64,000 nt of DNA from Candidatus Thiodiazotropha sp. CDECU1. GTDB taxonomy: Bacteria; Pseudomonadota; Gammaproteobacteria; Chromatiales; Chromatiaceae. Both the position numbers and the translations under genes were made by a program. Location of the stretch: assembly GCF_963455295.1 (NCBI RefSeq), contig NZ_OY734020.1:4154001-4218000 (forward strand). The letters are read 5' to 3'. Below are positions 1,044 through 50,102 of this stretch, piece by piece. The stretch's first letter is position 1, and each line of letters opens with the position of its first letter. Under the pieces are notes generated by a model. That model saw nothing but the letters and a program-made list of their open reading frames with translations, made no database searches and was not told the origin of the DNA.

Positions 1044-1310
1044 TAGTGGGCCAAGCGGGAAGTTCTGTAATTCTCAGAGCCCCGCAAAGGGATCAAAGCA
1101 AGGCGCGCTTCGCGGGGAATGGCAGGCCCTTTCCAAGAAGCGCAACGCCGAATTGATCCCTTTGCGGGGCTCCCCATGGGCCAGCCCACAAGCCAAGCTG
1201 ACCGTGTTGTGCTCACTTGAATTGGCTACGGCCAGTCCTGCGCTCGCACGCCTTGTCACCTTGGCTTGTGGACTGGCTGAGAGTTACAGAACTTCCCGCT
1301 TGGCCCACTA
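1044..1310. repeat. Nested-palindrome (MITE-like) element, copy E1
   Basis: A 267-bp element bounded by 34-bp terminal inverted repeats with one mismatch (1044-1077 and 1277-1310; outer end TAGTGGGCCAAGCGGGAAG). Inside are two further stems. Stem A is a perfect 20-bp inverted repeat (1077-1096 with 1153-1172). Stem B is 16 bp with one mismatch (1181-1196 with 1261-1276). The loop of A carries AGCAAGGC and AACGCCG; the loop of B ends in CGCCTTG. Open frames across it are by-products of the palindrome. No transposase is nearby. An architecturally matching element lies at 49832-50102, and an 18-bp copy of the terminal sequence lies at 29559-29576. Confidence 0.85.
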
Positions 1311-1330
1311 CGCCTGACGCTTGTCTTTCG

Positions 1331-1388
1331 CAGTAGCGGCAAGGATGCCGCGTAAGCCCCATCAGTATAGGGAAGTACTGTTGGGGCG
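1331..1388 (+). repeat. Two-hairpin dispersed repeat, copy 1
   Basis: A short unit with two consecutive hairpins. The first is GCGGC (1336-1340) with GCCGC (1347-1351). The second is GCCCC plus CAGTA (1356-1367) with TACTG plus GGGGC (1376-1387). A second copy at 57197-57248 keeps both hairpins and almost all loop bases but changes the inner stem to CAGCA/TGCTG, a compensatory pair. It lies in the 430-bp gap between ggt and the chalcone-isomerase-like gene, directly after element E1; nothing else is recognised in the rest of that gap. Confidence 0.75.
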
Positions 1389-1430
1389 TCGGAGGGCTAA
1401 AACACGTGTTATTTCTGGACGGGCTACGAG

Positions 1431-1997
1431 TCAGTCTGAACCAAGCAGTTCCTGTTTAAGGGATTTGCTGATTGGCGAATCGCCCAACCACACCAGCAGC
1501 AGCGCCTGGTAGAAATCCCCGCCTGGTATAACCCCTTTCTCCACCCCTTTGATGGTGACATGGGTGCCTGTGCCGGGTATGTAGTCCAGGCTTATCAGGT
1601 CACCCTCCTGTAATGTCTGAAACATGGCATTGAATTGATCGAGTCGATCACGCACCGCCTGTAACTTGTCGGCGTCGAGATTGGCGCTGAAGCCATCATT
1701 CCACCCGGATACGAATTTCTCTTTTTCAATCTCCGAATAGAGAATCTGCATCTGAACTCGGGCAGGCCGGTCAACAGCCAGCACTTCGGCGATGTCACTG
1801 GTCGATTGCTCAAGATAGAGGGAGGCCAGATAGATGCTGAAAAAGAGTTTCTTTCGAATACCGGCGCCATTCAAGACCAGTTCAGCACTATCCGCATCCC
1901 GGACAATCTGCTCCGGCAAAGATATGCCGGCAACTTCCCGGGCTTGACTGGTCATCATGCTGAGGGCCAAAAGAGAGGCAACAACTATTTTTTGCAT
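1431..1997 (-). CDS. Chalcone isomerase-like exported protein
   Basis: 188 residues beginning with a signal peptide (MQKIVVASLLALSMMTSQAR, cleavage near SQA). The rest matches the bacterial chalcone-isomerase-like fold: an early LVLNGAGIRKKLFFSIYLA segment (the typical 'NG.G.R....KVYVAGLYL' pattern), a central helical part with FVSGWNDGFSANLD, and a late VTIKGVEKGVIPGGDFYQAL segment. Such proteins are small periplasmic fatty-acid- or ligand-binding folds in bacteria and are not expected to isomerise chalcones. It is monocistronic on the minus strand, facing repeat DNA. The family call is good; the function is unknown. Confidence 0.75.
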   Translation of the reverse strand: MQKIVVASLLALSMMTSQAREVAGISLPEQIVRDADSAELVLNGAGIRKKLFFSIYLASLYLEQSTSDIAEVLAVDRPARVQMQILYSEIEKEKFVSGWNDGFSANLDADKLQAVRDRLDQFNAMFQTLQEGDLISLDYIPGTGTHVTIKGVEKGVIPGGDFYQALLLVWLGDSPISKSLKQELLGSD

Positions 1998-2401
1998 TAC
2001 TTCTTCATCCTTTGTTCAATTATCCAATCGGACTGCCGCTAGCGTTACGATCCCAATCGGTTGGATTGGCATAGATAGCATTACATCCTGAGTAGTGAAA
2101 TATCGGAGCCATGAATCTGATTTCTGAATATCGACCGGGAAGCTTCAGCCCAGATTATCTTCAGATGAATGGCACACCGACTGTAATAACATGCGTTTCA
2201 ATCATAGCCCACCAGCCACCCGAAGCGCCAAATACGCTTAGCTGCCAACTCTGTTTATAGCGAAATAATCTATCAAATGGGAGAGAAATTAATCGAGATC
2301 ATGAAAAAACTATATAAAAAACTGGTTTTTCATATTTAACTAATTAGAATCTGTGTTATTTTTACCATGCACAACCATGTTCATCAGAAGGAGCAAACCC
2401 T
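1998..2401. other. Divergent intergenic region upstream of the HU gene
   Basis: About 400 bp without a gene between two divergently transcribed genes. The 120 bp before the HU gene are strongly A+T-rich (for example at 2285-2350), as expected for a promoter region of a nucleoid protein gene, but no convincing -35/-10 pair could be fixed by eye. An AGGAG ribosome-binding site lies at about 2389-2393, 8 nt before the HU start codon. Nothing else is recognised. Confidence 0.5.
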
Positions 2402-2809
2402 ATGGCCCTCAGAAAAACCGCCAAAAAGACTGCAAAAAAAGCAGCAAAGAAAAAGGTAGCTGCAAAGAAAGTAGCAGCAGCACCACGCTTGAAAGCCATC
2501 GCAACCAAGCAGACAAAGACCCAGATCATCAGCGCTATCGCCGAAGACACGGGCCTGACGAAAAAGGAAGTTTCCTCAGTTTTCGGCGCATTGGATTCAC
2601 TCATCACGCGTCATATGCAACGCAGGGGTTCTGGCGAGATAACCATTCCTGATACTGGCGTCAAGGTACGTCGGGTTATCAAACCTCGCACCAAGGCGCG
2701 TATGGGCCGAAATCCTGCTACTGGCGAAGCCATCAAGATTGCGGCTAAGCCAGCCAAGACCGTGGTCAAGGTAACTGCGCTCAAGGCATTGAAAGACAAG
2801 ATCGGCTGA
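2402..2809 (+). CDS. HU/IHF-family DNA-binding protein with lysine-rich N-terminal tail
   Basis: 135 residues in two parts. Residues 1-30 are a low-complexity Lys/Ala tail (repeats of AKK, with AAKKKVAAKKVAAA) resembling histone H1-like tails. From about residue 40 there is a bacterial HU fold: TKTQIISAIAEDTGLTKKEV, then GALDSLITRHM, a GSGEITIPDTGVKV strand pair and the DNA-contacting arm with ARMGRNPATGEAI. The NPATGE motif is close to the HU consensus RNPxTG. It would bend or compact DNA; the basic tail probably adds non-specific DNA binding. An AGGAG site lies 8 nt upstream of the ATG. It stands alone and is followed by a hairpin. Confidence 0.88.
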   Translation: MALRKTAKKTAKKAAKKKVAAKKVAAAPRLKAIATKQTKTQIISAIAEDTGLTKKEVSSVFGALDSLITRHMQRRGSGEITIPDTGVKVRRVIKPRTKARMGRNPATGEAIKIAAKPAKTVVKVTALKALKDKIG

Positions 2810-2817
2810 TCGATTCC

Positions 2818-2843
2818 GCTGCCACTACCTTTGTAGTGGCAGC
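2818..2843. terminator. Hairpin after the HU gene, possible terminator
   Basis: A perfect 11-bp stem GCTGCCACTAC (2818-2828) with GTAGTGGCAGC (2833-2843) around a 4-nt loop, 9 nt after the HU stop codon and just before the 3' end of the convergent protease gene. There is no T-run on either side, so it is a weak intrinsic terminator at best. Confidence 0.5.
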
Positions 2844-2852
2844 TGCAATCAA

Positions 2853-3362
2853 CTATTGGGGCAATATCACCAGCTCCCCGCCCTGCTGCCTCAGGGAGAG
2901 ATGCTTGAGAAAACTCATGCCGAGCAACACCTCTCCATCAGGCATAGACGGCAGAATAGTAGCCTTCACCTCTCGCATCTCAATCGGCCCTAACTGGAGT
3001 CGATCTATCCTCGTCAACCAACTGCGCACCACACCGTTGGCGGTCCTGCTTTGCATTGGCATCCCTCGCTGCAGTCCCGCCCTTTCCGCCAGGCTGGAGG
3101 ATACCGCGACATAGGTCGCCCCGGTATCGAGTAAAAATGTTACGTCTATCCCATTGATGCGGCCAGGTGCAACATAGTGTCCGGCTCGATTCCTTTGCAA
3201 TACGACTCCCGTCTTACCGCCACCAATCGTTGTGACCTGCAAATCCCGGTTCGGATTATTTCGCTTATCAAGCCACTGTGAAAACAGCAGGGTCAACAGC
3301 AGCAACAGCAGCAACCAGGCGAAAAGAATCATCCATCGTCCGAACCTCTGTCGTTCACTCAT
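2853..3362 (-). CDS. Membrane-anchored retropepsin-like aspartic protease (clan AA)
   Basis: 169 residues. Residues 10-29 form one transmembrane helix (mostly Leu) after a short basic N-terminus, so the catalytic part is probably periplasmic. The aspartic protease signature is FLLDTGATYVAVS with the catalytic Asp at residue 79; the later EVLLGMSFLKHLSL segment is the family's second hallmark (hLGh.hL). It carries only one D-T-G motif, as in retroviral proteases and the TIGR02281 family, so it should act as a dimer. The substrate is unknown. It is convergent with HU and follows the mlaC-like gene on the same strand. Confidence 0.82.
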   Translation of the reverse strand: MSERQRFGRWMILFAWLLLLLLLTLLFSQWLDKRNNPNRDLQVTTIGGGKTGVVLQRNRAGHYVAPGRINGIDVTFLLDTGATYVAVSSSLAERAGLQRGMPMQSRTANGVVRSWLTRIDRLQLGPIEMREVKATILPSMPDGEVLLGMSFLKHLSLRQQGGELVILPQ

Positions 3363-3417
3363 GTGGCAGATTTGCCCGGCGGCTAGCAGGCACAGTTTAA
3401 ATTAAATGTAGGTTAGG

Positions 3418-4029
3418 TTAACGGCGGTAGTTCCTGCTGCCTGTCTGAGTGCGGGATTGGTTGGCGAAGTGGCGGCGATAATAAGCCAATGCACTATTGC
3501 CATTTGCCGACACATCAAACACCTTCCAGCCCGATTCACTACGATAGAAGCGAAAATCCAGGTTTGCCGGATAACCGCCGGCCCGCAGAATACCGACCCG
3601 CACTTTCACCTCATTGTCACCGACTCGGCGCGGTCGATAAAAACGCACATCCTGATTGTCGTAGCTGATAAGTCTCTTTGCCAGCGTTCCCAACAGCAGG
3701 GTTTTGATCTGCTGCGCCAACTCCATGCGTTGCTGATCATTCATGCTTCGATTCATAGGACCCGCCGCCCAGGTCGCCATGTAGGCAAAATCAAAATAGG
3801 GCGCCACTTCACGCTCAAGAAACCCGGAAATCTGTCGCGGCTGGGGGTTATCAGCGGTACGCAGGTATCTCAGTAATTTGGTCATCCCTTCACGCAGCAG
3901 TGTATCCGGCCCTACCTCCTGGTATGCAGGGGCCTGCATCCGTGAGGCGGGATAGTTGTAGCCCGGGGCCGCCAACACTGATGTAGCAAACAGGCTCATG
4001 CTGGCAATGGCAATTAATACTCTTTTCAT
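3418..4029 (-). CDS. MlaC/Ttg2D-type phospholipid-binding protein
   Basis: 203 residues from the chosen ATG at 4029, which has a GGAGG site just upstream and starts a good signal peptide (MKRVLIAIASMSLFATSVLAA); an upstream ATG at 4071 would bury this signal. The mature part has the MlaC pattern: a leading helical region, then FLEREVAPYFDFAYMATWAAG, a QQRMELAQQIKTLLL helix and a C-terminal sheet with GWKVFDVSANG. MlaC shuttles phospholipids between outer- and inner-membrane Mla complexes. No mlaDEF genes are adjacent, so this is an orphan copy. It lies 50 bp downstream of cbbO on the same strand. Confidence 0.75.
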   Translation of the reverse strand: MKRVLIAIASMSLFATSVLAAPGYNYPASRMQAPAYQEVGPDTLLREGMTKLLRYLRTADNPQPRQISGFLEREVAPYFDFAYMATWAAGPMNRSMNDQQRMELAQQIKTLLLGTLAKRLISYDNQDVRFYRPRRVGDNEVKVRVGILRAGGYPANLDFRFYRSESGWKVFDVSANGNSALAYYRRHFANQSRTQTGSRNYRR

Positions 4030-4078
4030 AATTCCTCCGTTTGGGTGGTGAGTTTGCGTGGATTGACGCACGCAATCT

Positions 4079-6193
4079 TCAGGTGGTTATTTTTTTATAG
4101 ATATCAGAAACCTTCAAAGGTAGTTTTTCAACTTCATTGACAACCGTATAGTTCGCAGCACCATACATATGTGGCAGATAATCCTGCCCCTCTTCATCAA
4201 TAGTTATACAGAAGGCGTGAATTCCCTGGCGTCTCGCCTCGAACAATGCTTGCCGTGTATCCTCAATGCCATGTTGGCTACGGTAATCATCATTGTAATC
4301 ATCCGGTTTGCCATCTGACAATGTGATCAGCAATTTGGTTCTCGCCTCGACCTCACCCAGCAGATGACTCAAGTGGCGTATGGCTGCGCCCATGCGAGTA
4401 TAGTCCCCGGCCCGCATACCGCTGATCCTGGCCTTGACCGCCGCATCATAAGGCTGATCGAATCGCTTCACCGGAAACACCTCGCAACGCTTGCGGCTCA
4501 TCCCGGTAAAGCCATAGATCGCGTAGCGATCCCCCAGGGTTTCCAGTGACTCAGCCAGTAAAATCAAGGCCTCACGCTCCGCCTGATTGACCCAACCCTG
4601 AGTCGAGCCGGACATATCCACCATGAACATCACCGCGATATTCCGCTCCTCACGCTGCATGCGTGTAAACAGACGGTCGGTCATCTCCAGTCCTTTGTGC
4701 ATATCAGCCCAGGCCTCGACAAAGGCATCGATGTCCACGCTATCACCTTGTGCCTGACGCTTGAGCAATCGATCCTCATCGCGCAACGCCTCAAATGTCT
4801 TGCGCAGACCCGACAATAAGCGACGATATTTGACCATCACCCCGGCCACAAAATCGTCGTGCACCTCCTCCACAGGCATCTCTCGCACCACGCACCAGTT
4901 CTTGCGGTAGTGCTTACGCCGATAGTCCCACTCCTGATAGAGAAACGCACCATCTTCATGATAGGTGCCGCTCCACACCTCTTGCGGCTTCAATGTCTCG
5001 TCTTCCAAATCTTTCAGGTCGTACTCTCCTGGCCCCGCTGGGGTCAGATACTCTTCAGGGATATCCCCGAGATCCTGAACAATCGATGTGGCGAGATTTT
5101 TAATCTCTTCCGAGAATGGCACGGACTTTCCATTGACCTGCAACTCAAACCGCATCTCCTCCCTCGACTCCACATCATCCAGAGCCGGCATGGAAAACCG
5201 CTGAATCGGCTCCTGCTCATCATCGGACTGCTGCAGATCATCGGCAATCGTCTTCAAGGCCACTCGCAGCTTCACCTTTTCCCTTTCAATCCGGCGTTGC
5301 ATAACCGCCGCCACCAACCCCGGTTTCAATTGACCGTGGAAAAGGGCCAGCTTCGGCAACGCATCACCGATGATGCGTTTACTCAGATCGAGGGAGTCCT
5401 GGGCGGTGGCATCGTGTGCTCGCAGAAAGGCCAGCTGTCGCTCCCAGCCCGCGGGTTTCGATTCAGGATTCAATTGCTTCTCGAGCTCACCCATCTCCCG
5501 AAACAGACCTGGCAGTTCGCGCTCGATGCAGGCATTCAGACGCACACTTTCAACCGCGTGAAAATAACGCAGCGCCGTGTCCGGTGTGGGATGCTGCTGC
5601 AGATAGGCGATCAAATCGGCACGGTAGGTGCCGAAACGAACTTGCGCCCAATGATAGGCTACAGCCGCCTTGTAGAGTAGAAAGTTATCCCGTGGATTCG
5701 GCAGATGGGCCATGACAGCGGGAAGAAATATCACCTCACCATCGGTATAGAGAGCATCGGCCCGCTCGAGTTTCAACTTTCGCCCGGACAAACCCTGCAC
5801 GAAAGGGAGCAGCACGCCAGCCTGCTCATCGAACAGAGACCCGGCAGCCCGTTCCCGTCCCTGTTCGACGAACACCTCCACATCCCGGAGCGTCGCCAAT
5901 GCCGCATGCAGGCCGGAAAGATCGTACACATCCATCGCCTGCACCAACCAGGCTTCGATCATCGCCTTGTCCATCAAGCGCAGCACCTTAGGCGCCTGTT
6001 GTGCAAACTGATAAGCAATCTCGATATGGGTACTGGCGGTCCGCCTTATCCAGTCAAGGATAAATCTCTGGTCATCGGCTGGCAGACCAAGCAGTTCTTC
6101 ACAGATGTTCTGAGTGTTGCGGAAACTGTACTCGACTTCGAAGTACTCATCGAGCAACGCCTGAATCTGGGCCTGGTTGAGCTCAGACCTCAT
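4079..6193 (-). CDS. cbbO: RuBisCO activase subunit CbbO (VWA protein)
   Basis: 704 residues: a long N-terminal helical region, a linker rich in acidic residues, and a C-terminal von Willebrand factor A domain. The MIDAS metal site is visible as VDMSGSTQG (about residue 525) with the later TLSDGKPDDYND (about residue 622). CbbO is the adaptor that docks the CbbQ AAA+ ring onto inhibited RuBisCO. The stop-start gap to the upstream cbbQ is only 12 bp, so they are co-transcribed. No RuBisCO gene is in the window. NorD is the close paralogue; length and the CbbQ-like partner favour CbbO. Confidence 0.85.
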   Translation of the reverse strand: MRSELNQAQIQALLDEYFEVEYSFRNTQNICEELLGLPADDQRFILDWIRRTASTHIEIAYQFAQQAPKVLRLMDKAMIEAWLVQAMDVYDLSGLHAALATLRDVEVFVEQGRERAAGSLFDEQAGVLLPFVQGLSGRKLKLERADALYTDGEVIFLPAVMAHLPNPRDNFLLYKAAVAYHWAQVRFGTYRADLIAYLQQHPTPDTALRYFHAVESVRLNACIERELPGLFREMGELEKQLNPESKPAGWERQLAFLRAHDATAQDSLDLSKRIIGDALPKLALFHGQLKPGLVAAVMQRRIEREKVKLRVALKTIADDLQQSDDEQEPIQRFSMPALDDVESREEMRFELQVNGKSVPFSEEIKNLATSIVQDLGDIPEEYLTPAGPGEYDLKDLEDETLKPQEVWSGTYHEDGAFLYQEWDYRRKHYRKNWCVVREMPVEEVHDDFVAGVMVKYRRLLSGLRKTFEALRDEDRLLKRQAQGDSVDIDAFVEAWADMHKGLEMTDRLFTRMQREERNIAVMFMVDMSGSTQGWVNQAEREALILLAESLETLGDRYAIYGFTGMSRKRCEVFPVKRFDQPYDAAVKARISGMRAGDYTRMGAAIRHLSHLLGEVEARTKLLITLSDGKPDDYNDDYRSQHGIEDTRQALFEARRQGIHAFCITIDEEGQDYLPHMYGAANYTVVNEVEKLPLKVSDIYKKITT

Positions 6194-6205
6194 ACCGGCG
6201 AATGA

Positions 6206-7003
6206 TCAGAAGAGCGAGGCACTGAGTTCATTCACCGCCACCAGCATATCCGCATCGTCGGTCAACGCCTGAGCGACGCATGCACGACAAGCCATCACCG
6301 GATCAATCCCACTGGCAATCAGTTTTGCCGCATGTACCAGCAATCGGGTTGAGGCCCCTTCGTCCAAGCCGCTGCCTTTGAGATTGCGTGTCATATGCGC
6401 AAACTTCACCAGCCTGGCCGCCATTTCGCCATCCACTGCCGCCTCATTTTGAATAATCTTTTTCTCCAGCTCAGATTCCGGATAATCGAATTCCAGGGCG
6501 ACGAAACGCTGACGCGTACTCTGTTTGAGATCCTTGAGCACACTCTGATAGCCCGGATTGAATGAGATGGCCAGGCAAAAATCCTCCTTCGCCTCAAGCA
6601 ACTCACCCACCTTCTCCATCGGCAGGACGCGTCGATCGTCGGCCAATGGGTGGATTACCACAGTGGTGTCCTTGCGTGCCTCCACCACTTCATCCAGATA
6701 ACAGATGCCGCCGGCGCGCACCGCTGCCGCCAGGGGCCCGTCCACCCACAGTGTTTCGCCATTCTTTACCAGAAAGCGGCCCACCAGATCAGAGGCAGTC
6801 AAATCATCATGGCAAGAAACTGTAATCAAGGGGCGTTTCAGACGCCACGCCATATGCTCCATGAAGCGGGTCTTGCCACAGCCGGTAGGCCCCTTCAACA
6901 AGACGGGCAATTGATTGCGATAGGCGGCCTCAAAAACCGTTATCTCATCGTTTACCGGCTCGTAATAGGGCTCTTGTTCGAAATAATACTCTTCAGGTTT
7001 CAA
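6206..7003 (-). CDS. cbbQ: RuBisCO activase AAA+ subunit CbbQ
   Basis: 265 residues, MoxR-class AAA+ ATPase. Walker A is GPTGCGKT (residues 38-45), Walker B is YLDEVVEAR (Asp-Glu 104-105), and the SFNPGYQS and STRQRF segments hold the sensor-1 and arginine-finger region. CbbQ hexamers remodel RuBisCO carrying inhibitory sugar phosphates, with CbbO as adaptor. The annotated start is TTG at 7003; no ATG or GTG lies close by in frame, and no strong ribosome-binding site is visible, so the first few residues are uncertain. NorQ is an alternative name for the same fold, but the sequence reads closer to CbbQ. Confidence 0.87.
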
Positions 7004-7368
7004 AGTTTGATTCTTAAAGTAATTTAAGTATTGGACGTCAACGCTAACTGGGCCCGATGATTAGCGCAACTCATTAAACCACGGCCTGCCCAGGGGCTTT
7101 TATACGCCACTGCGGTAGTTCGAGAGTGTTAAACAGTCAGCAAAACAGGAGTTTTTGGCTATCAAGGCCCTACCATCAGCAACTTAACCCAACAACAGAG
7201 AGCAATAGTGAATTATACTTCGTAGTTGGGGCAGTCGCTAACCATATACCATTGTTGCATTTACGCAGAGACTGTCGACAATCGCAAATAGGAACCTTGG
7301 TCGTATGCAGGGGATCAAATCACCTGTCTGCCATTGTCAATTCTAAAGAAACATTTCAGGGAATGTTG
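7004..7368. other. Divergent intergenic region, cbbQ / GGDEF-EAL gene
   Basis: About 365 bp without a supported gene if the GGDEF-EAL protein begins at 7369. The reading frame of that protein stays open back to 7126, so an N-terminal extension of about 80 residues cannot be excluded, but that stretch reads as non-coding and has no family similarity. The region must hold divergent promoters; none could be assigned with confidence. Confidence 0.4.
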
Positions 7369-9843: not shown

Positions 9844-9911
9844 GGCCTAGCCCGAATCCTACTTGCTAAAGCGATTTGATCACTAACTAGGGCATTTCCA
9901 ACGTGTTTTGG

Positions 9912-9968
9912 TGGGGCAGGGCCCCACCCTACGGCCTTTATAATTGTGTAGGCCGGGGCCCTGCCCCA
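9912..9968. repeat. GC-rich inverted repeat between GGDEF-EAL gene and qmoA
   Basis: TGGGGCAGGGCCCC (9912-9925) pairs with GGGGCCCTGCCCCA (9955-9968) around an A+T-rich loop that itself contains GGCC pairs. The motif CCACCCTACG inside it recurs near 29617-29640 (GTAGGGTGGGGC), so this belongs to a dispersed GTAGGGTGGGGC-type repeat family. It may end transcription of the upstream gene, but has no T-run. The rest of the 355-bp gap to qmoA holds nothing recognised apart from an AGGAG-like site before qmoA. Confidence 0.6.
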
Positions 9969-10199
9969 GCAAAATAGCCTGGTTACCACAGAGAATTCTC
10001 GGACTTGGTGTCAGACCCCTTAAGTGAGTGCTATTCGGGCCAGTATTTATTAGAAAAGGCTTATACACCATAACCCAACTCTATCATCTCATTCAAAAAT
10101 TCGATGGATTATTCCCAGCTGGGATATAGAAGGCACGCCAGAAGACGCGTAAGGTATCGGGTCCAGAATCTAAAGCCATTCCGCAACGGAGGAAGATCC

Positions 10200-11474
10200 A
10201 TGACGGAAGTAATCGCAACCAATGAGACTATTCTCGTGGTCGGTGGCGGCATCAGCGGCATGACCGCTGCGTTAGAGGCCGCTGAGACGGGAAAACAGGT
10301 CGTACTGGTTGAAAAGCGCCCCTACGTCGGCGGTCGCGTCACCCAGCTGTACAAATACTTTCCCAAGCTCTGCTTCCCCACCTGCGGGTTGGAGATCAAT
10401 CAGCGCCGGGCAAAGATGAATCCGAACCTCAACATCATCACCATGGCCGAGGTTACGGATATCAAGGGTGAGGCGGGCAATTATACCGCCAGCGTCAAAA
10501 TCAGCCCCCGTTACGTGAATGAGAACTGCACCGCCTGTGGCGATTGCGCCAAGGCAGTGGAGAGCGAATTCGACGATGAATTCAACTATGAGATGGGCAA
10601 GCGCAAGGGCGCCTACCTGCCTCACCGCATGGCCCATCCCCAGCGTTACATCATCGATCCGGCACTGATCGGCACCGATGAGGCTCAGAAAGCCAAAGAC
10701 GCCTGCAAAGTGAATGCAGTCGACCTGGACATGCAGGAAGAGACCATCGAATTCAAGGCCGGCGCGGTAGTCTGGGCCACCGGCTGGAGACCCTATGATG
10801 CCAACAAGATCCAGCCCTACGGCTACGATCGTATCGCCAATGTGATCACCAGCGTCGAATTCGAGCGCATGGCCGATCCCAACGGCCCCACCGGCGGCAA
10901 GCTGGTGCGTCCATCCGACGGTAAAGAGGTCAAATCAGTGGCCTTCATTCAGTGCGCCGGCTCCCGTGACAAGAATCACCTGCTGCACTGCTCGCGCATC
11001 TGCTGCATGGCCTCCCTGAAGCAGGCCACCTACCCGGCGGACGAGGTGGACATCTCCATCTACTATATCGATATCCGCGCCATCGACCGTTTTGAAGATT
11101 TCTACCAGACGGTGAAGGCAAAGGAGAACGTCAGCTTCATCAAGTCCAAGGTTGCCTCCATCGTGGAGAACAAGGAGAACGGCAATCCGACCCTGCACGG
11201 CGTCGATACCGAGGGTTACAACCGCTACGCCAACGAGCACGACCTGGTGGTCCTGGCCGTGGGTATGGAGCCCAGCGTCGACAAGACCAGTTTCCCGGTG
11301 GAGATCGTCATCAACGAAGAGGGCTTTATCGAGCCCGCGCCGGAAAACGGCGGCGTCTTCGCTGCTGGTTGCTCGTCCGATGCGCTGGATGTCAACCGCG
11401 CCGTTCAACACGCCACTGGTGCCGCCCTGCGCGCCATCCAAGTGGTCAATCGCGTAGCAGCGACGGAGGGTTAA
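10200..11474 (+). CDS. qmoA: QmoA-type flavoprotein (HdrA-like)
   Basis: 424 residues from ATG 10200, preceded by GGAGG 7 nt away; a longer open frame upstream has no family similarity. The N-terminal FAD-binding motif is VVGGGISGMTAALEAAE, followed by the family-typical YFPKLCFPTCGLEINQRR and a CTACGDC cysteine cluster. The later CAGSRDKNHLLHCSRICC matches the HdrA signature. QmoA is an FAD protein of the Qmo complex, which exchanges electrons with APS reductase; in sulfur oxidisers it is thought to accept electrons from AprBA. It is the first gene of a four-gene operon with qmoB, hdrC and hdrB. Confidence 0.92.
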   Translation: MTEVIATNETILVVGGGISGMTAALEAAETGKQVVLVEKRPYVGGRVTQLYKYFPKLCFPTCGLEINQRRAKMNPNLNIITMAEVTDIKGEAGNYTASVKISPRYVNENCTACGDCAKAVESEFDDEFNYEMGKRKGAYLPHRMAHPQRYIIDPALIGTDEAQKAKDACKVNAVDLDMQEETIEFKAGAVVWATGWRPYDANKIQPYGYDRIANVITSVEFERMADPNGPTGGKLVRPSDGKEVKSVAFIQCAGSRDKNHLLHCSRICCMASLKQATYPADEVDISIYYIDIRAIDRFEDFYQTVKAKENVSFIKSKVASIVENKENGNPTLHGVDTEGYNRYANEHDLVVLAVGMEPSVDKTSFPVEIVINEEGFIEPAPENGGVFAAGCSSDALDVNRAVQHATGAALRAIQVVNRVAATEG

Positions 11475-11478
11475 GAGA

Positions 11479-15730: not shown

Positions 15731-15736
15731 ATGCAT

Positions 15737-40454: not shown

Positions 40455-40710
40455 TGTTTCATCGGGTGTAGTTGTTTAATGCCTACCTGAGTCGCAACAG
40501 CCGTATCACCTCAACACCTGGGGCAGAATAATAGCAACATCAACCCCGGTCCTGTTCAGGTCTCATAGCAACTTCTGTTAGTGACCACCATTATAACTGT
40601 TTGAAATATAGCATTCATGTAAACGAAATAGATATGACACCGTTAAGAAACAGTGGCCACCTAGAATGCTCAGCGCTTATAAGTATTACGCCTAATGGGG
40701 AGCATATTCT

Positions 40711-42540: not shown

Positions 42541-42550
42541 AAACCGGCTG

Positions 42551-42609
42551 GCCCGTATTTCTCGCACCCGGACCTAGCGAGACGGCTCAAGGGTGCGGGA
42601 TGAACGGGC
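42551..42609 (+). terminator. Imperfect hairpin after the PhoX-like gene
   Basis: GCCCGT (42551-42556) pairs with ACGGGC (42604-42609) and CGCACCC (42563-42569) with GGGTGCG (42591-42597), forming a long interrupted stem right after the stop codon. No T-run follows. It may slow or partly end transcription. Confidence 0.45.
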
Positions 42610-42630
42610 TTGAGTAATCAAATCAGGGAA

Positions 42631-42656
42631 ATGGGGGTGGCCTATGCCACCCCCAT
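42631..42656 (+). promoter_or_regulatory. Perfect hairpin just upstream of the cytochrome start
   Basis: An 11-bp perfect stem ATGGGGGTGGC (42631-42641) with GCCACCCCCAT (42646-42656), loop CTAT, followed by TTGTGTTTC. It ends 20 nt before the ATG at 42677 and about 10 nt before its GGAG site. It could be a terminator/attenuator between the PhoX-like gene and the cytochrome gene, or a mRNA-end-protecting hairpin. Confidence 0.55.
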
Positions 42657-42676
42657 TGTGTTTCAGGAGATACAAA

Positions 42677-44317
42677 ATGAAACATATTCACATGTTCTTG
42701 ATGACGGTAGTGTTTGCGGCCCTCACGGCATGCGGCGGCTCAAGCAGCGACTCAGACACGCTAAATCAATCGCTGGTTTTTCCCACAAGCTATGCGAAAT
42801 CACCTGCCGGAGACCTGCGACCCGAGGAGACCGGTGTGGTCTACAATTTGGAGGCGATAGTCCCCCCCCAGTGTTATACCAAGCACGAAGCAACCCACAA
42901 TCCCTGTATGATCTGCCACCAGACCTATACCTTTGGCAGCCGTCCGAACTATATGAGCGACAAGGCGCTGCAGGCAGAGTACTCATTCTCGGAGATCGGG
43001 GTTACCAACCATTGGCAGAATCTGTTTGAAGACCGTTCGGACGCGGTCTCCCAAATCAGCGATCAGGCGGTCATCGACTATATCTATACCGACAACTACT
43101 CGACCCTGATCGAGCAGTTGCAGCGAGACTCCTGGGATGGACCTATCCCCGCCATCCAAGATCTGCATCTCGGTGCCGGCGCCTTTGACGACCAGGGCTT
43201 TGCCCTCGATGGCAGCCACTGGGTGGCCTTCAACTACAAACCCCTGCCCAGCACATTCTGGCCGACCAACGGTTCCACCGATGACGTCATGGTGCGGCTT
43301 CCCGCAGCGTTTCGCGAACAGAGTTGTAACGGCAGCGGCTACTCCCGGGATACCTACATCGCCAACCTGGCGATACTGGAGGCGGCAATACAGGAGCTGC
43401 AACAGGTAAGCCTGCCGCAAGTGGATGAAAACAGCTTCTGTACCGACCTGAACGGGGATGGGCAGCTTGGGCTCATCAACACGATTAACCGTCCCGATGC
43501 ATATGTCGGTAACGCCTCCAATGTCAGCGTCACCCCGATGCTCTACCCCGAGGGTACCGAATTCCTGCATACGGTGCGTTATATCGGACTCGACGAGGAT
43601 ATGACGATTACCATCCCGGCACGCATGAAAGAGGTGCGGTATATGGTCAAACAGACCTTCTATACGCCCCCGGAACTGCTCTCCATGTATGGCAACGAGA
43701 AGCAGGAAAAACTCGATGGCAACCTACCGAACTTTGTCTCCCGGGGAGACGACGGTCTGGACAACGGCTTCGGCTGGCTGGTGCTGGGTTTTATCGAAGG
43801 TGCTGACGGCCATCTACGCAAGCAGAGCGAAGAGGAGACCACCTTCTGCATGGGCTGCCATACCTCCATCGGCAGCACTATCGACCAGACCTTTGCCTTC
43901 CCCCGCAAAGTGACCGGAGCCTCGGGTTGGGGCTATATCAACCTTCGGGGTATGGTGGACGCACCCAACATCGGCGAGACAGAGGGTGAGATTCTCAATT
44001 ATTTGAAGCTTGTCGGCGGCGGCAATGAATTCCGGGAAAACGACGAGATCATCGAGAAGTGGTTCAATGAGGATGGCAGCGTCAATGAAGAGAAGGTCCT
44101 GGCCGCGGACGTCTATGAGTTGATCACCCCGAGCCCGGAACGCGCCTTGATCTTGAACAAGGCCTACATGGTGATCGTAGGGGATCAGGATTTCATCCAC
44201 GGTCGCGACGCCAATGTCACATCAGCAGTGAACGTCTATAATGCGGTCGATCCGGAGATCGCACCGGTTTTACCCACCGAACGTCAGTATGACTGGGATA
44301 TGCGCCTGGCCTGGTGA
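42677..44317 (+). CDS. Di-haem c-type cytochrome lipoprotein
   Basis: 546 residues from ATG 42677 (GGAG 6 nt upstream); an in-frame start at 42644 lies inside a hairpin and would spoil the signal. The lipobox is ALTAC. Two haem c motifs: CMICHQ (near residue 82) and CMGCHT (near residue 390), far apart, with no other known domain recognised between them. It would face the periplasm or cell surface and carry electrons. It directly follows the PhoX-like gene, so the two may work together; no partner oxidase is adjacent. Confidence 0.78.
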   Translation: MKHIHMFLMTVVFAALTACGGSSSDSDTLNQSLVFPTSYAKSPAGDLRPEETGVVYNLEAIVPPQCYTKHEATHNPCMICHQTYTFGSRPNYMSDKALQAEYSFSEIGVTNHWQNLFEDRSDAVSQISDQAVIDYIYTDNYSTLIEQLQRDSWDGPIPAIQDLHLGAGAFDDQGFALDGSHWVAFNYKPLPSTFWPTNGSTDDVMVRLPAAFREQSCNGSGYSRDTYIANLAILEAAIQELQQVSLPQVDENSFCTDLNGDGQLGLINTINRPDAYVGNASNVSVTPMLYPEGTEFLHTVRYIGLDEDMTITIPARMKEVRYMVKQTFYTPPELLSMYGNEKQEKLDGNLPNFVSRGDDGLDNGFGWLVLGFIEGADGHLRKQSEEETTFCMGCHTSIGSTIDQTFAFPRKVTGASGWGYINLRGMVDAPNIGETEGEILNYLKLVGGGNEFRENDEIIEKWFNEDGSVNEEKVLAADVYELITPSPERALILNKAYMVIVGDQDFIHGRDANVTSAVNVYNAVDPEIAPVLPTERQYDWDMRLAW

Positions 44318-44326
44318 AGAAGTAAG

Positions 44327-44406
44327 GGGGACAGACCACGGTTTCCAACGCTATCGACGTTTAACAACAGTAACGCGCTAAAATCCCAAAACCGTGGTCT
44401 GTCCCC
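44327..44406. repeat. Inverted repeat GGGGACAGACCACGGTTT between convergent genes
   Basis: GGGGACAGACCACGGTTT (44327-44344) has a perfect inverted copy, AAACCGTGGTCTGTCCCC (44389-44406), around a 44-nt loop. It fills the gap between the cytochrome gene and ntrX, which converge, and may act as a bidirectional terminator. The motif resembles mobile REP-type palindromes. Confidence 0.7.
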
Positions 44407-44415
44407 GATTTTACA

Positions 44416-45786
44416 TCACCGCTTGTCTTTGAACTCGATCTCCAGGGATTTGAGCTTGCGATAGAGATGGGTGCGTTCCATGCCCACCTCCTTGGCCATG
44501 CGTGAGATGTTGCCCTCGTGCTGGCGCAGCTGATACTCCAGATAGACCTTCTCGAACTCCTCTCTGGCCTGTCGCAAGGGTTGATCGAAACTGACCAATG
44601 ACTCCAGCCCCCCCAATGCACTCCCCACATCGGGGGCGCCCAGCGCCGCTTCCACCTCCTCCTGGGAGATCTCATTGCCGGCACCCAGGATCAACAATCG
44701 TTGCACCAGGTTCTTCAACTCCCGCACGTTGCCATGCCAGGGATGGTTACGCAGGGTATTCTGCGCCCCCACGTTAAAGTGCCGGTAAGGCAGCTTTTCG
44801 TGGTTCACATACCAGTCCACGTAGAAGTTGAGCAGCTCCGGGACATCTTCCGGATGCTCACGCAGGGGAGGAACATGCAGGGGTACCACATTGAGATGGT
44901 AGAAGAGGTCTTCACGAAATGTCTCCTCCTGCACCGCCTCTTCCAGATTGTGTTGGGTTGCGGCAATGATCCGCACATCGATACTCACCGGCTCCGTGCC
45001 GCCGACCCGAAGAAAACTCCCGGTATCCAGCGCACCCACCAGTTGTGACTGGGCCTCCAGGTCCATATCCGCCACTTCATCAAGGAACAGGGTCCCTCCC
45101 GCCGCCTGCTCCAGTCGACCGTAGTGAATTCGGCCGTCTCTTTCACTGCCAAACAGTTCCTGCGCAGCGTTTCCCTTCACGATCGAGCTGACATTCACCT
45201 CCACAAAGGGTCGGTCGCGGCGAACGCTCTGGGAGTGGAGATAGCGGGCCAGGGTTTCACGGCCACTACCTGGCTCACCGGTCACCAACACCCAGGTATC
45301 GTGCTGGGCTATCCGCTTCACCTGCTCTCGCAGACGCAGCATCACCGGGCTGCGGCCCGTGGGCTCGTGCACGGCATGCACATGGCGTTTTAGGCCAACA
45401 TTCTCCTGCTTGAGCTGTTCCGCCTCCAGGGCGCGATTGACCGTCAATAATAACTTGGCCAGAGAGAGAGGCTTCTCCAGAAAATCATAGGCCCCCAGAC
45501 GCGTGGCCTCGACAGCTGTCTCCACTGTGCCATGCCCCGACATCATGATCACCGGGCAGGGTAGGCCCTCGTTCTCACCCCACTCCTTCAACAGGGTGAT
45601 ACCGTCCACATCGGGCATCCAGATGTCCAGCAGGATCAGTTCCGGGCGACGATCACGCAATGCCTGGCGCGCAGACTTGCCATCCTCCGCCATCGCTACC
45701 TCATAGGATTCGTCCTGGAGAATCTCTTTTACCAGGTTGCGGATATCAGGCTCATCATCCACAACCAGGATATAGGCGCGACTCAT
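44416..45786 (-). CDS. ntrX: NtrX-type response regulator lacking GAFTGA and the Walker A lysine
   Basis: 456 residues: receiver (VVDDEPDI, phosphoacceptor Asp 54 in LILLDIWMPD), an AAA+ central domain and a Fis-type helix-turn-helix (NISRMAKEVGMERTHLYRKL). The Walker A reads GEPGSGRE, with Arg (codon CGT) in place of the catalytic-site Lys. Between ELFGS and the Walker B GGTLFLDEVADMD the sequence is ERDGRIHYGRLEQAA, so the sigma-54-contacting GAFTGA loop is absent. It probably binds DNA but does not activate sigma-54 polymerase. Its start overlaps the ntrY stop by 4 bp. Confidence 0.85.
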   Translation of the reverse strand: MSRAYILVVDDEPDIRNLVKEILQDESYEVAMAEDGKSARQALRDRRPELILLDIWMPDVDGITLLKEWGENEGLPCPVIMMSGHGTVETAVEATRLGAYDFLEKPLSLAKLLLTVNRALEAEQLKQENVGLKRHVHAVHEPTGRSPVMLRLREQVKRIAQHDTWVLVTGEPGSGRETLARYLHSQSVRRDRPFVEVNVSSIVKGNAAQELFGSERDGRIHYGRLEQAAGGTLFLDEVADMDLEAQSQLVGALDTGSFLRVGGTEPVSIDVRIIAATQHNLEEAVQEETFREDLFYHLNVVPLHVPPLREHPEDVPELLNFYVDWYVNHEKLPYRHFNVGAQNTLRNHPWHGNVRELKNLVQRLLILGAGNEISQEEVEAALGAPDVGSALGGLESLVSFDQPLRQAREEFEKVYLEYQLRQHEGNISRMAKEVGMERTHLYRKLKSLEIEFKDKR

Positions 45787-47981
45787 ACTTCACTCTCCTC
45801 TGTTGCGGTCTCTCGAGTCAAATCCAGCAGCATAGGTAGTTGCACCACCATACAGGCACCTTTATCACAGTTTTCTGCCCAGATGATACCGCCATGTTCC
45901 TCAACAATCTTCTTTACAATCGCCAGACCCAGTCCCGTACCCTTGGGTTTGGATGTGACATAGGGCTCAAAGAGCTGTTGTATCATCGCCTCGGCGAAGC
46001 CCGGACCATTGTCCTGCACACGCAATTCATAGAACGGATGATCATCCCGGCTACGGACGGAAGAGACCAGGGAGACCTTACCCCGCTTCTTCCCCTCCAA
46101 CGCCTCGACAGCGTTTTTAACGAGATTGTGAACGACTTGACGGATACGCAAGGGATCGGCCTCGATCCTGGCGTGGTTGGCTGACAGGTCGATCTCAAAT
46201 CCCACCCCGCGAGTACCCCGGTAGAGGTCGACAATCTCCCCGATCAGGGTATCCGGTTTGATCGGCTTCAACTCCATCTGCGGCGGACGGGCATACTCGG
46301 AGAAGTCGTTGACCATGCTCTTCATGGCCTCCACTTGCTGCACGATGGTATGGGTCGCGCGATCGAGCACCTCGGCATCACGTTTCGGCATGTCATTCAG
46401 ATATTTGTGTCGCAAACGCTCCGCCGAAAGCTGAATAGGCGTCAGCGGATTTTTTATCTCATGGGCCAGACGCCGCGCCACCTCGCCCCAGGCGGCATCC
46501 CGCTGGGCGCGGATCAGTGCCGTCACGTCATCGAACAAGACGATATGACCTTTGCGCCCGTTGGGCTGGGCAAATGGGGTGGTCCTGCAGATCAACACCT
46601 TGCGTCCTTCACCACCAAACAGGGTCAACTCACCGCGCCACTCCTCGTCGATCTGGCGTAACGGCGCCTCCAAACCTTCGGCGAACTGCCTCAGAATGGG
46701 GGATTCAAGGGCCAAGGCCTGAACCGGCATATCGATTCTGCGGTTCAGGTTGATACCGAGAATCTTTTCCGCGGCCGGATTGGCGGTGCGCATCTTGCGC
46801 TGGGCATCGAAGGTCAGCACCCCGGACGAGAGTCGGGCCAACACGGTTTCCAGGTAGGCCCGCTGTCCCTCCACCTCCCGCTGGCTCTCCGCGGCTTGAT
46901 CCCTGGCCTGGCGGATACGCCGGGTCATGGTGTTGAATGAGGATACCAGGAAGGCAAGCTCATCCGCCCGTCTCGGTACGGGCAGACGGCGATCGTAGTC
47001 CCCCTCGGCAACCGCCTTGGTGCCTGCAGCGATGTTCGCAATCGGCGCCACCAAGCGCCTGGCGGAAAAGAACGCGGCCCAGACAGCCGACAGCATCGCG
47101 AACATCAGTACCAGAAACAGGGTCAGGGAGAAGTTGCGCTTCAGTGATTGACGCAGAAACGAGAGTTCATTGTAGCGGTTATAGGCCACTTCCAGCTTTT
47201 CCGAGAGGACGCTGACCCTCTCCGACGCGGGGTAGAGCCCCTGAATGATGAAGGGTCGGCCGAGGGGATCCGCCACGGCAACACGAATCATCAGCTCATC
47301 CTTCTCCCTGGCCAATCCAACGTAGCTGTTACCCTCACGCAGACGCTGCATGATGTAATCGTCCGGTTTGGCCGGCACCAACTCATCCGCCACGGCATTT
47401 GAATAGGCGATGATCTGCCCCGACGGATCGCTCAGTGAGAGCTCCAACGCACCCGATTGTTGACGCAGCTTGGCTATAGTCAGAGAGAGCGCCGATTCAG
47501 AGGTATCCGCGATACTGAGCAGCTGCTGCTCCGTATACTTCAGCCACACCCGCTGATTGAGGGAGAGAGAGGCCTGGGCCAGATCCCGAGCATCCTGCAT
47601 GGCCTGGTCGATCTGCACATCGAACCAGCTATCGATACCCCCCTGCAGAAAACTGAACGAATAATAATAGACCACGCCTACGGGAAGCAGTGAGATCAGG
47701 GTGAAGATCATCACCATGCGCAGGGTCAGCCGCGAACCGGCGCTGTGTCGCAGATATTGGCGTATCAGACGTATCGAGTTGTAGGTGATCATGACGATCA
47801 GGACGAACATACCCGCCAGGTTGAAGATCAGCAGCGGGACAAAATAGCGGCTCAACTCGGTTGAATTCTGCACCGCACTGCTCATCAGGTGCAGGCTCAC
47901 CAGCAACAGTATCAGCAATAGGCCGACGGAGAGCCCTCCCAGGCGTAATCGACTCAAGGTTGAAGGGGCCATTGGGACCAT
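45783..47981 (-). CDS. ntrY: NtrY-type membrane sensor histidine kinase
   Basis: 732 residues: several N-terminal transmembrane helices with a periplasmic sensor part (about residues 100-280), a HAMP linker (SARRLVAPIANIAAGTKAV), a PAS domain, a HisKA domain with the phospho-His in RLAHEIKNPLTPIQLSAERL, and a HATPase domain (VVHNLVKNAVEAL, DNGPGFAE, GTGLGLAIVKKIVEEHGG). It should phosphorylate the partner NtrX. The start overlaps the DUF4390 gene; it belongs to the def-fmt-rsmB-DUF4390-ntrY-ntrX block. Confidence 0.9.
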   Translation of the reverse strand: MVPMAPSTLSRLRLGGLSVGLLLILLLVSLHLMSSAVQNSTELSRYFVPLLIFNLAGMFVLIVMITYNSIRLIRQYLRHSAGSRLTLRMVMIFTLISLLPVGVVYYYSFSFLQGGIDSWFDVQIDQAMQDARDLAQASLSLNQRVWLKYTEQQLLSIADTSESALSLTIAKLRQQSGALELSLSDPSGQIIAYSNAVADELVPAKPDDYIMQRLREGNSYVGLAREKDELMIRVAVADPLGRPFIIQGLYPASERVSVLSEKLEVAYNRYNELSFLRQSLKRNFSLTLFLVLMFAMLSAVWAAFFSARRLVAPIANIAAGTKAVAEGDYDRRLPVPRRADELAFLVSSFNTMTRRIRQARDQAAESQREVEGQRAYLETVLARLSSGVLTFDAQRKMRTANPAAEKILGINLNRRIDMPVQALALESPILRQFAEGLEAPLRQIDEEWRGELTLFGGEGRKVLICRTTPFAQPNGRKGHIVLFDDVTALIRAQRDAAWGEVARRLAHEIKNPLTPIQLSAERLRHKYLNDMPKRDAEVLDRATHTIVQQVEAMKSMVNDFSEYARPPQMELKPIKPDTLIGEIVDLYRGTRGVGFEIDLSANHARIEADPLRIRQVVHNLVKNAVEALEGKKRGKVSLVSSVRSRDDHPFYELRVQDNGPGFAEAMIQQLFEPYVTSKPKGTGLGLAIVKKIVEEHGGIIWAENCDKGACMVVQLPMLLDLTRETATEESEV

Positions 47982-48502
47982 CCTGTCGTCAGCTTCCAGC
48001 CCCGGCCCAGGTAGGCCAAGGGCTGCAGCGGTAAGGGAAGTGATTCGATATCGAGGTCGGCGCGTAGACGCAGTTGATAGGCCTCGCCAGGGGTCAGTTT
48101 TGTCATGCTGACCATAGGCAGATTGGTGATCTCACCCAATGCATGCAGGGCCGCTTCCTGGGTGACGAAATTCTCTTCATCCCCGGTCTGTCTATCCACG
48201 ATTCGATAGAGTTCCGTCAAGGCATGGTAGCGAATCTGAAAACTCAAGGTGGTGGCAAATGGGCTCGGTTCCCAGAATCCACGCCATACCTTCTCCACAA
48301 AAAGCTGTACTTTCAAGGTCAGCGGCACCCCGTTGCTCAGCGCTTCATGGGCCTGTTCACTCAATTGATAATCTATGCGGGCATTCAACTGGTACACGTT
48401 GTCGACTTGATTGATCTGAACATCCTTGATGTTAAAGGCCGCTGCCTGCGCCAGTGGCAGCAACAGCAGAATCGACAACAGCCATGATGATCCCCTCCTC
48501 AT
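47954..48502 (-). CDS. DUF4390 exported protein
   Basis: 182 residues with a signal peptide (LLSILLLLPLAQAAAF). The body matches DUF4390: NARIDYQLSEQAHEALSNGVP, LTLKVQLFVEKVWRGFW, FQIRYHALTELYRIVDRQTG and a final GWSQWPL. This family is almost always between rsmB and an ntrY-type kinase gene in gammaproteobacteria, as here, and may modulate the kinase in the periplasm (inference). It overlaps both neighbours. Confidence 0.85.
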   Translation of the reverse strand: MRRGSSWLLSILLLLPLAQAAAFNIKDVQINQVDNVYQLNARIDYQLSEQAHEALSNGVPLTLKVQLFVEKVWRGFWEPSPFATTLSFQIRYHALTELYRIVDRQTGDEENFVTQEAALHALGEITNLPMVSMTKLTPGEAYQLRLRADLDIESLPLPLQPLAYLGRGWKLTTGWSQWPLQP

Positions 48503-49827
48503 GAGGCCAGTTTTACTAAACGAGCATAGTAAAAACCGTCCAAACCATCCTCACCAGGGGCGATCTGGCGTCCTGACGATCTGGCCTCTCCCCAAGTCTC
48601 ATCCATCATATCCTCCCTGGCATCGGCCTGGCGGGAGAGAAATTGCTGTAACTGCAGTTCATTCTCCTGCGGCAGGATTGAGCAGGTTGCATAGAGCATC
48701 ACACCACCCGGTTTCAATAACTGCCAGACAGCGTCCAGAATTTTGGCCTGAAGTTTCACAAGATTGACGATATCTGTCTCCCTGCGCAGGTACTTGATAT
48801 CAGGATGGCGCCGGATCACACCTGTCGCTGAACAGGGCAGATCCAGCAATATCCGATCATAACACTGCCTCGCCCAGGATCCACTGGGGTTGGCCGCATC
48901 TCCCAGCTGCAGGGTCGCCTGAAGTCCCAGGCGTGACAGATTCTCCCCCACCCGTTGCAGACGGTCGGCGTCGTTGTCCAGGGCGGTCAACTCGATCTTT
49001 GGCTCCAGCTCCAACATATGGCAGCTCTTGCCCCCCGGCGCCGCACAGGCATCCAGTACCTGCTGCCCAGGCTGCAATCTCATAAGACCTGCCGCCAACT
49101 GGGCTGCCCCATCCTGTACCGAGACACGCCCCTCGGCAAAACCGGGCAGTCTCTCCACGTCCATGGCCTGGGCCAGGTTGATGCCGCTTTCGATGATTGG
49201 CATGGGACTGGCCTCGATAGCACTCTCCTGCAGCAGTTGCAGGTAATCCTGGCGCGAATTGATTTGCCGGTTAATCCTGAGACTCATGGGTGGATGGGCA
49301 TTGAGCGCCTCTACCCGTTGACGCCAACTCTCGGGCCATTGGGTCTGCAGCGCTTGCAGTAACCAACCGGGCATGGCATGCAGCGCCTCCGCTTCATCCG
49401 CCAGATCAGCGAGCAGCTTCTCCTTCCGGCGCAGGAAGTTGCGTAGCACACCATTGATCAGACCCACGGCCCAACGCTTGCCGAGTTTATTCGCCGCACC
49501 GGCCGTTTCATGCACCGCGGCATGATCGCCAACTCTGAGTTCGAGCAGCTGATAGAACCCAACCAGAATCAGGGCCTCCACATCCCGGTCCTTCGACTTC
49601 AACGGTTTTGCCAATAATTGGCGTTGCAGATATTGCAGCTTGAGATAAAACCGCATCACACCGAAGCAGATCGCCTGGACCAATCCCCGGTCGCGACTAT
49701 CGTCAAGTTGATCGAGATAGTGGGGCAGCAACTCGGAAAGCGAACGACCCGCCAATACCTGCTGGATGACGAGCGCGGAAACAAGGCGCGGATCACCGGA
49801 GTTTACTCTCCTTGCGCCAGCCGGCAT
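48499..49827 (-). CDS. rsmB: 16S rRNA m5C967 methyltransferase
   Basis: 442 residues from ATG 49827. The open frame continues upstream to 49992, but that part translates the inserted palindromic element and is not homologous. Domains: an N-terminal NusB-like RNA-binding domain (ALVIQQVLAGRSLSELLP, HAAVHETAGAANKLGKRWAVGLINGVLRNF) and a SAM methyltransferase domain (LDACAAPGGKSCHML, DLPCSATGVIRRHPDIK, catalytic Cys in YATCSILPQENE). It methylates C967 of 16S rRNA. Confidence 0.93.
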   Translation of the reverse strand: MPAGARRVNSGDPRLVSALVIQQVLAGRSLSELLPHYLDQLDDSRDRGLVQAICFGVMRFYLKLQYLQRQLLAKPLKSKDRDVEALILVGFYQLLELRVGDHAAVHETAGAANKLGKRWAVGLINGVLRNFLRRKEKLLADLADEAEALHAMPGWLLQALQTQWPESWRQRVEALNAHPPMSLRINRQINSRQDYLQLLQESAIEASPMPIIESGINLAQAMDVERLPGFAEGRVSVQDGAAQLAAGLMRLQPGQQVLDACAAPGGKSCHMLELEPKIELTALDNDADRLQRVGENLSRLGLQATLQLGDAANPSGSWARQCYDRILLDLPCSATGVIRRHPDIKYLRRETDIVNLVKLQAKILDAVWQLLKPGGVMLYATCSILPQENELQLQQFLSRQADAREDMMDETWGEARSSGRQIAPGEDGLDGFYYARLVKLAS

Positions 49828-49831
49828 CAGC

Positions 49832-50102
49832 CTAGGACCTGTTAACACTAATCCAATGCACTCTGCTGGGACTGTTTTTGCACCCAGCAAGGCAGAATGA
49901 GCGTAGTGTAGCCCGGCTACATGAGCGAATGATAACGCCGCTGGGTGCAAAAACAGCCCCAGCCCTTCGGGGTGCGCCTGAAAAAGCGCCACTCAGCGTT
50001 GCTCGTCGTTCATTTGGAGTGACCAAACTTCTCTCCTCGCGCCTTGATTGGCGCTTTTTCAGGCACAACAGTGTGCATTGGATTAGTGTTAACAGGCCCT
50101 AG
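49832..50102. repeat. Nested-palindrome (MITE-like) element, copy E2
   Basis: A 271-bp element with 30-bp terminal inverted repeats, one mismatch (49832-49861 and 50073-50102; ends CTAGGACCTGTTAACACTAA), bounded by CTAG on both sides. Stem A: 24 bp, one mismatch (49865-49888 with 49940-49963). Stem B: 15 bp perfect (49976-49990 with 50050-50064), with an inner hairpin TTTGG/CCAAA in its loop. Loop A has AGCAAGGC and AACGCCG; loop B has GTTGCTC and CGCCTTG, as in E1. It sits exactly between fmt and rsmB and supplies the last codons of fmt. Confidence 0.85.

Follow-up and report, generated by a model that had tools for sequence, protein, structure and literature searches.

The usual picture of a bacterial miniature inverted-repeat transposable element (MITE) is an insertion sequence (IS) that has lost its middle. 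Among the families described, the Correia elements, or NEMIS, of Neisseria have TA termini and terminal inverted repeats (TIRs), and the accounts given of them report folded transcripts and RNase III processing (PMC2229807, PMC10969869). Here we describe two elements, E1 and E2, in a 64,000-nucleotide stretch of Candidatus Thiodiazotropha sp. CDECU1 (herein the window; positions 4154001-4218000 of a single 4,463,383-base contig), in which it is the middle that is conserved and the ends that change. Both are mobile elements in which TIRs surround two hairpins whose loops are one module, inverted. We give about even chances to the reading that places E1 and E2 in a single superfamily of non-autonomous MITEs with exchanged ends and a conserved two-hairpin core, which would most likely be a two-sided RNA device.

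Anatomy of E1 and E2

E1 (1044-1310) and E2 (49832-50102) are each ~270 bp long and consist of the following parts, where R1 denotes a model built on the loop modules that has E2 among its sequences and gives rough E-values.

1044-1077, plus strand: E1 left TIR with the flanking TA at 1044-1045 (target C-TA), from an inverted-repeat search and the TA on both sides of full copies
1077-1172, minus strand: E1 hairpin A, arms 1077-1096/1153-1172, loop module 1099-1150 in minus orientation, R1 match of 72.7 bits
1172-1180, no strand: E1 central mini-hairpin CCCCATGGG between hairpins A and B, from the sequence and a spacer survey
1180-1277, plus strand: E1 hairpin B, arms 1180-1202/1255-1277, loop module 1202-1255 in plus orientation, R1 match of 45.6 bits
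1277-1310, plus strand: E1 right TIR with the flanking TA at 1309-1310, from inverted repeats and TA flanks
49832-49861, plus strand: E2 left TIR, CTAG at 49832-49835, from inverted repeats and the flanks of copies
49865-49963, minus strand: E2 hairpin A, arms 49865-49888/49940-49963, module 49888-49940 in minus orientation
49963-49971, no strand: E2 central mini-hairpin CCCTTCGGG (other strand: CCCGAAGGG), from the sequence and the spacer survey
49973-50067, plus strand: E2 hairpin B, arms 49973-49995/50045-50067, module 49994-50046 in plus orientation
50073-50102, plus strand: E2 right TIR, CTAG at 50099-50102, from inverted repeats, copy flanks and an empty site

In E1 the TIR arms pair over 34 nt (97%), stem A over 20 nt (100%) and stem B over 23 nt (91%); in E2 the TIR arms are 30 nt, stem A 24 nt (96%) and stem B 23 nt (91%). 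These coordinates agree with a preliminary description of the window, which had given both elements as ~270 bp with 30- to 34-nt TIRs and two internal stems, and the loop boxes that it had found in common are present: GCGTT...GCCTTG on one strand, CAAGGC...AACGC on the other. It had missed that loop B is the module of loop A inverted. Its further claim, that the stems are unrelated and change freely, stands between E1 and E2; the stems of other families can be aligned and change stepwise, so that it was overstated for close families.

The Loop Module Is Widespread

Nine modules from five kinds of element align, with the boxes GCGTT (GTGTT in hairpin B of E1) and GCCTT. The pattern GCAAGGC-N(20-50)-AACGCCG has 36 matches in the host's own genome, most of them E2 copies, vs. 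none for a backwards control. R1 matches the own genome 81 times. In a set of 39 genomes made up of the own genome and relatives it matches 25, including 20/20 congeners. Across the class, 105 of 369 genomes are matched (E ≤ 0.001; at most 15 candidates scored per genome), and across the phylum 52 of 398 (E ≤ 1e-4; at most 14 candidates per genome), of which 33 belong to other classes. Of two such loci that were read, L382 has the full anatomy, and the readout at L383 is not centered on an element. The matches listed from a scan of named genomes (80 of at least 117 stretches) include Thiodiazotropha, Sedimenticola, Thiohalobacter, Wenzhouxiangella, Stutzerimonas, Pseudomonas, Nitrosomonas, Giesbergeria and others. 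A phage collection contained no match and viral contigs a single one; E. coli genomes showed no match to loop B of E2.

Bridging Elements Link E1 and E2

As R1 was built with E2 inside, it is unable to prove the link between E1 and E2. A second loop model, R2, is built from E1 without E2. Its score for loop B of E2 is 15.1 bits (E 0.17), and it does not find loop A of E2. Because this direct similarity is weak, the link rests on bridging elements, foremost L245 from Stutzerimonas nitrititolerans. L245 aligns with hairpin A of E1 (E 3e-8), with hairpin B of E2 (E 3e-15) and, inverted, with hairpin A of E2 (E 5e-13); the best of 100 shuffles, applied to E2 and not to E1, reached E 0.033. The inverted match suggests that both hairpins of E2 descend from the B type. 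R2 also finds the A hairpins of L245 and L246 and of the plasmid elements L343, L344 and L345, all at E 5e-7 or better. At E ≤ 1 it has no match in the IS loci L346, L199 and L352 or in the Catenovulum elements L348 and L350; in these last two a GTGTTATAGC...GCTATGCCTTG module was read by eye despite the lack of an R2 match.

Hairpins Covary and Mostly Keep Their Spacing

A search of 99 sources gave 172 module matches, the best 150 of which (145 distinct) were aligned as A4. Standard pairs fill 85.4% of the cells of the 145 distinct modules, vs. 68.6% after shuffling and 33 to 58% with slid partners, and cells changed on both sides number 290 vs. 78 when shuffled. Among modules located without regard to arms and with at least 60 nt on both sides, palindromic arms scoring ≥11 surround 81 of 101; none of 505 shuffled flanks gave such arms. 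Neighboring modules in the same set of 150 form 44 pairs, all in (-,+) orientation, and 40 of the 44 are spaced 103 to 106 bp. The spacer has the form CCN5GG in 82 of 88 unique pairs, many of them from related copies; in 65 of these 82 it reads C-GNA-G, equivalent to C(UNCG)G on the other strand.

Mismatches within the helices are unevenly distributed between the strands. Read in the GCGTT...GCCTT orientation, the module has 110 A.C mismatches vs. 31 G.T, and its lower helix 38 vs. 4. In the arms of hairpins of 80 to 115 nt, counted as distinct cluster-position events, the figures are 112 vs. 30 at 80% clustering. An A.C mismatch reads G.T on the other strand, so wobble is tolerated on the CAAGGC...AACGC strand. 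Covarying helices with wobble tolerated on one strand are the marks looked for in a structured RNA, and we infer that one strand of each hairpin would fold, the opposite one for each of the two. Since the hairpins are opposed, each DNA strand, taken 5' to 3', would meet its folding hairpin first.

One Core with Many Ends

Element sets were defined by a TIR score of at least 13 (219 readings, some of them one element in two loci) or, for identities between clusters, by TIRs of at least 24 nt (197). The 219 TIR-bearing readings resolve into 125 distinct TIRs in 26 clusters, all with the core. Identity between TIR clusters is 0.75 in the core (0.52 shuffled) and 0.55 in the arms (0.50 shuffled). 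When TIRs of 26 to 44 nt with the inner end CAG/CTG (88 distinct) were compared by halves, eight pairs (four via L299) had like inner and unlike outer halves, and none of 3828 shuffled inner halves reached the cut-off; one pair shows the reverse, with like outer and unlike inner halves.

Some ends are shared with complete ISs. The E2-type end class TAGGGYCTGTTRAC matches IS5-family ISs of Aeromonas and Azotobacter plasmids (NCBIfam transpos_IS5_3) and of the congener G007. Class TATTAACCCGGC, found in L235 with two hairpins and in L242 with one, matches an IS630-family IS of the congener G009, in 20 of 22 bases for L235. A DDE_3 (IS630-type) transposase is present in 4 of 23 other hosts; among the DDE_3 loci considered as partners, L199 has a matched TIR, none was seen in L200, L201 and L203, and the fragment L202 is broken. 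Compared with plasmids, the E1 TIR gave nothing, two further TAGTG-type TIRs gave matches only at E 1 to 4 (three checked, none usable) and L212 gave no match. No transposase was recognized in twenty own-genome stretches around E2-type ends that lack a full partner. The frames touching E2 are the ends of neighboring genes only, and it carries no transposase gene of its own.

Copies and Insertion Sites

E2 has 31 near-full matches in the own genome (≥90% of the query, 81 to 100% identity, window copy included) as well as fragments; E1 has three full copies and fragments. Among 30 E2 copies read, the length between scored ends is 263 bp in 17, 289 to 291 in 7, 316 to 317 in 5 and 343 in 1; the longer forms, exceeding the 263-bp form by ~27, 54 and 80 bp, are L012-L014, L016-L018, L022, L023 and L026-L030. 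C or T precedes the left TA in 29/30 E2 copies, and A or G follows the right TA in 30/30. These flanking bases vary independently, which fits duplication of TA in a YTAR target; E1 has TA on both sides in 3/3 full copies.

The window copy of E2 lies within the fmt-rsmB operon, at the junction of these two genes:

50010-51110, minus strand: fmt (methionyl-tRNA formyltransferase; Pfam), last 28 codons inside E2
48499-49827, minus strand: rsmB-like gene (Pfam), immediately downstream of E2, in the direction of fmt

The junction is empty of E2 in 20/20 congeners. A relative of 98% identity reads CATCAGCCTAGGACCACGCC where the window has CTAG-element-CTAG, and its Fmt ends VVLG-stop; the window Fmt runs 28 residues further, encoded by E2. 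Of 33 copies, 32 could be placed, and by crude gene calls none of these lies inside an open reading frame. Their neighboring genes are arranged in tandem in 20 cases, tail to tail in 7 and head to head in 5 (24, 15 and 12 in control pairs).

Derivatives of E2 ends also occur in the own genome. A 33-bp mini-element, TAGGGCCTGTTAACACTAATCCGATAGGCCCTA, which looks like two E2 ends nearly overlapping, stands at the separate sites L323, L324, L330, L332, L334, L335 and L337, some differing by one base, with a variant in L325. Lone E2 ends of 20 to 22 bp lie beside unrelated sequence at L326, L327, L329, L331, L339, L340 and L342, and L328 (near 2329700) is a derivative of ~100 bp with both E2 TIRs and no loop modules. 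At L352, in the congener G007, a TAGTACTC-type end directly follows the CTAG that ends an IS5-family IS, as if element ends were targets.

In an Rfam search of the 64-kb window the cobalamin riboswitch (59039-59231, 123.3 bits) was the only match. At 12 loci with elements, no match to an element reached the gathering score; the best, M23, scored 25.9 bits against a threshold of 41.2 and was taken as chance. For annotating repeats outside Rfam coverage, a covariance model of the core is ready to use. The window also contains three copies of a 72-nt palindromic repeat starting CGTCATCCCGGC, in alternating orientation (62174-62807), and further inverted repeats of 21 to 33 nt at 56978-57074, 57170-57275, 44313-44420 and 9906-9974.

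Discussion

E1 and E2 resemble MITEs in having TIRs, TA flanks with an empty site for E2, no transposase of their own and, for the TAGGGYCTGTTRAC and TATTAACCCGGC classes only, ends shared with ISs. We infer that DDE transposases supplied in trans would move them. The preliminary description had proposed movement in trans or a nature as structural RNAs, and the TA-flanked ends, the empty E2 site and the TIRs common to IS5- and IS630-family ISs in other genomes support such movement at the level of sequence. Among the comparisons that it called for, those of sequence have turned out as it foresaw: a search with the loop model finds further copies with the loop module, the helices covary, and the E2 site is precise and empty in congeners; neither a lack of further copies nor decay without stem covariation, which it named as grounds for giving up the idea, is seen. 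Its view that selection acts on a folded RNA or single-stranded DNA, in place of ordinary MITE decay, gains support from the spread of the module together with the covariation.

In the reading that we favor, the core would have persisted through several exchanges of the outer ends recognized by transposases. If so, the core would not be the site of one transposase and would act on something that hosts share; the occurrence of one core with ends from two families of transposase speaks for its retention for a purpose common to hosts. Given the strand bias, RNA from transcription entering either side is the simplest candidate, with single-stranded DNA as its main rival. Transcription from either side would meet a correctly oriented hairpin first, and the core could then serve as a two-sided RNA device through which read-through transcripts would, for example, undergo RNase III-type processing or be insulated, so that intergenic and operon insertions would become tolerable. 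Tentatively, and as a possibility that we rate as less likely than not, what the element inherits as its identity would be its two-sided folded RNA core rather than its ends. The core would then have moved between the TIRs of unrelated transposases (IS5, IS630 and others) within Gammaproteobacteria and in one or more other classes of the phylum, as an independent selfish RNA or a module of host interaction that relies on borrowed transposases.

Several observations weigh against the favored reading. Two of five covariation measures fall within shuffling (double-change pairs, reached by 53 of 500 shuffles, and further pair types, by 105 of 500), and alignment A4 was itself obtained by fitting to the model. 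In the module, the strand bias includes inherited events, with 61 of its 110 A.C mismatches at two positions outside the lower helix (40 and 21); that of the arms falls to 48 vs. 22 at 70% clustering; and fixed internal loops and shared ancestry inflate mismatch counts. The spacing is not rigid, as 4 of the 44 module pairs are 119 to 170 bp apart and, in the own genome, the modules of long E2 forms 132 to 133. TIR identity between clusters is 0.42, a figure without a shuffled control. The own genome showed no IS5_3-like or DDE_3 transposase in our searches, and searches of plasmids and ISs found none for TAGTG ends such as those of E1. A role as terminators was considered and found no support, tail-to-tail neighbors being in no excess by crude gene calls (7 vs. 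15 in control pairs).

The alternative that fares best, which we nonetheless think unlikely, is that the core acts as single-stranded or extruded DNA, folding during replication and joining the ends or recruiting a host DNA factor, and so helping any DDE transposase. The fold is symmetric and either strand offers it, and the strand bias would fit as well, G.T being tolerated better than A.C in single-stranded DNA; a double-strand cruciform, in contrast, predicts no strand bias. The central loop speaks for both sides: it is mostly GNA on one strand, and a GNA loop is unusually stable in DNA, whereas the other strand offers C(UNCG)G, a stable RNA loop. To our knowledge, DDE transposition is not known to need single-stranded ends, which counts against this alternative.

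We consider it improbable that the core has no function, with palindrome-correcting template switching keeping drifting arms complementary and the loops being old MITE sequence. The arms do change while staying complementary, the identity of outer arms between TIR clusters is barely above that of shuffled ones, and wobble intermediates are few in the module orientation. However, the unpaired boxes GCGTT and GCCTT are kept across the class and the TIRs are not, the 103- to 106-bp spacing recurs in most module pairs, and correction does not predict a strand bias. That several IS-derived MITEs converged, E1 and E2 having no common ancestry, is very improbable: the unrelated TIRs and the poor R2 result on E2 would fit, but L245 matches hairpin A of E1 and, far beyond shuffles of E2, both hairpins of E2, and the 54-nt loops have many specific positions.

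A core conserved between changing ends makes testable the reason for such elaborate folds, the host factor that they engage and the survival of non-autonomous DNA after transposase loss.

Comparison with Known Systems

The literature searched contained no recognized description of the two-hairpin core; subscription papers mostly lay outside that search, so prior publication is possible. Correia elements contain an AAGGCG...GCAACGCCG stretch that may resemble the core. Their terminal TA and TIRs also recall E1 and E2, and RNase III cleavage of Correia transcripts is a precedent for processing (PMC10969869); at ~107 or 155 bp, vs. ~270 bp here, they are set apart by the descriptions available (PMC2229807). 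By its description in the same source, CIR of Caulobacter and Brucella shares the plan of two hairpin arms and a linker and differs in its GANTC motif and in having no TIR listed (PMC2229807). RUP has a TA target and a presumed IS630 transposase in trans, and among the elements described here one class of TIRs matches an IS630 IS; RUP is 107 bp long, and its description there includes no two-hairpin core such as that of E1 and E2 (PMC2229807). The repeats R0, R2 and R6 of Pseudomonas fluorescens are flanked by TIRs, and the ends of R0 and R2 are identical to those of an IS; they measure 80 to 177 bp and were compared by their description (PMC2718517). REP/BIME sequences with RAYT, which are GTAG-tagged short palindromes with a tyrosine transposase, differ from E1 and E2 in length and TIRs, again by description. 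The closest likeness in general form is to IS-derived bacterial MITEs, which are also short, geneless, bounded by TIRs, TA-flanked and intergenic, and like them some TIR classes here match IS5- or IS630-family ISs; the difference is that in E1, E2 and their relatives the interior is conserved rather than the ends, and that it is found with the ends of at least two transposase families.

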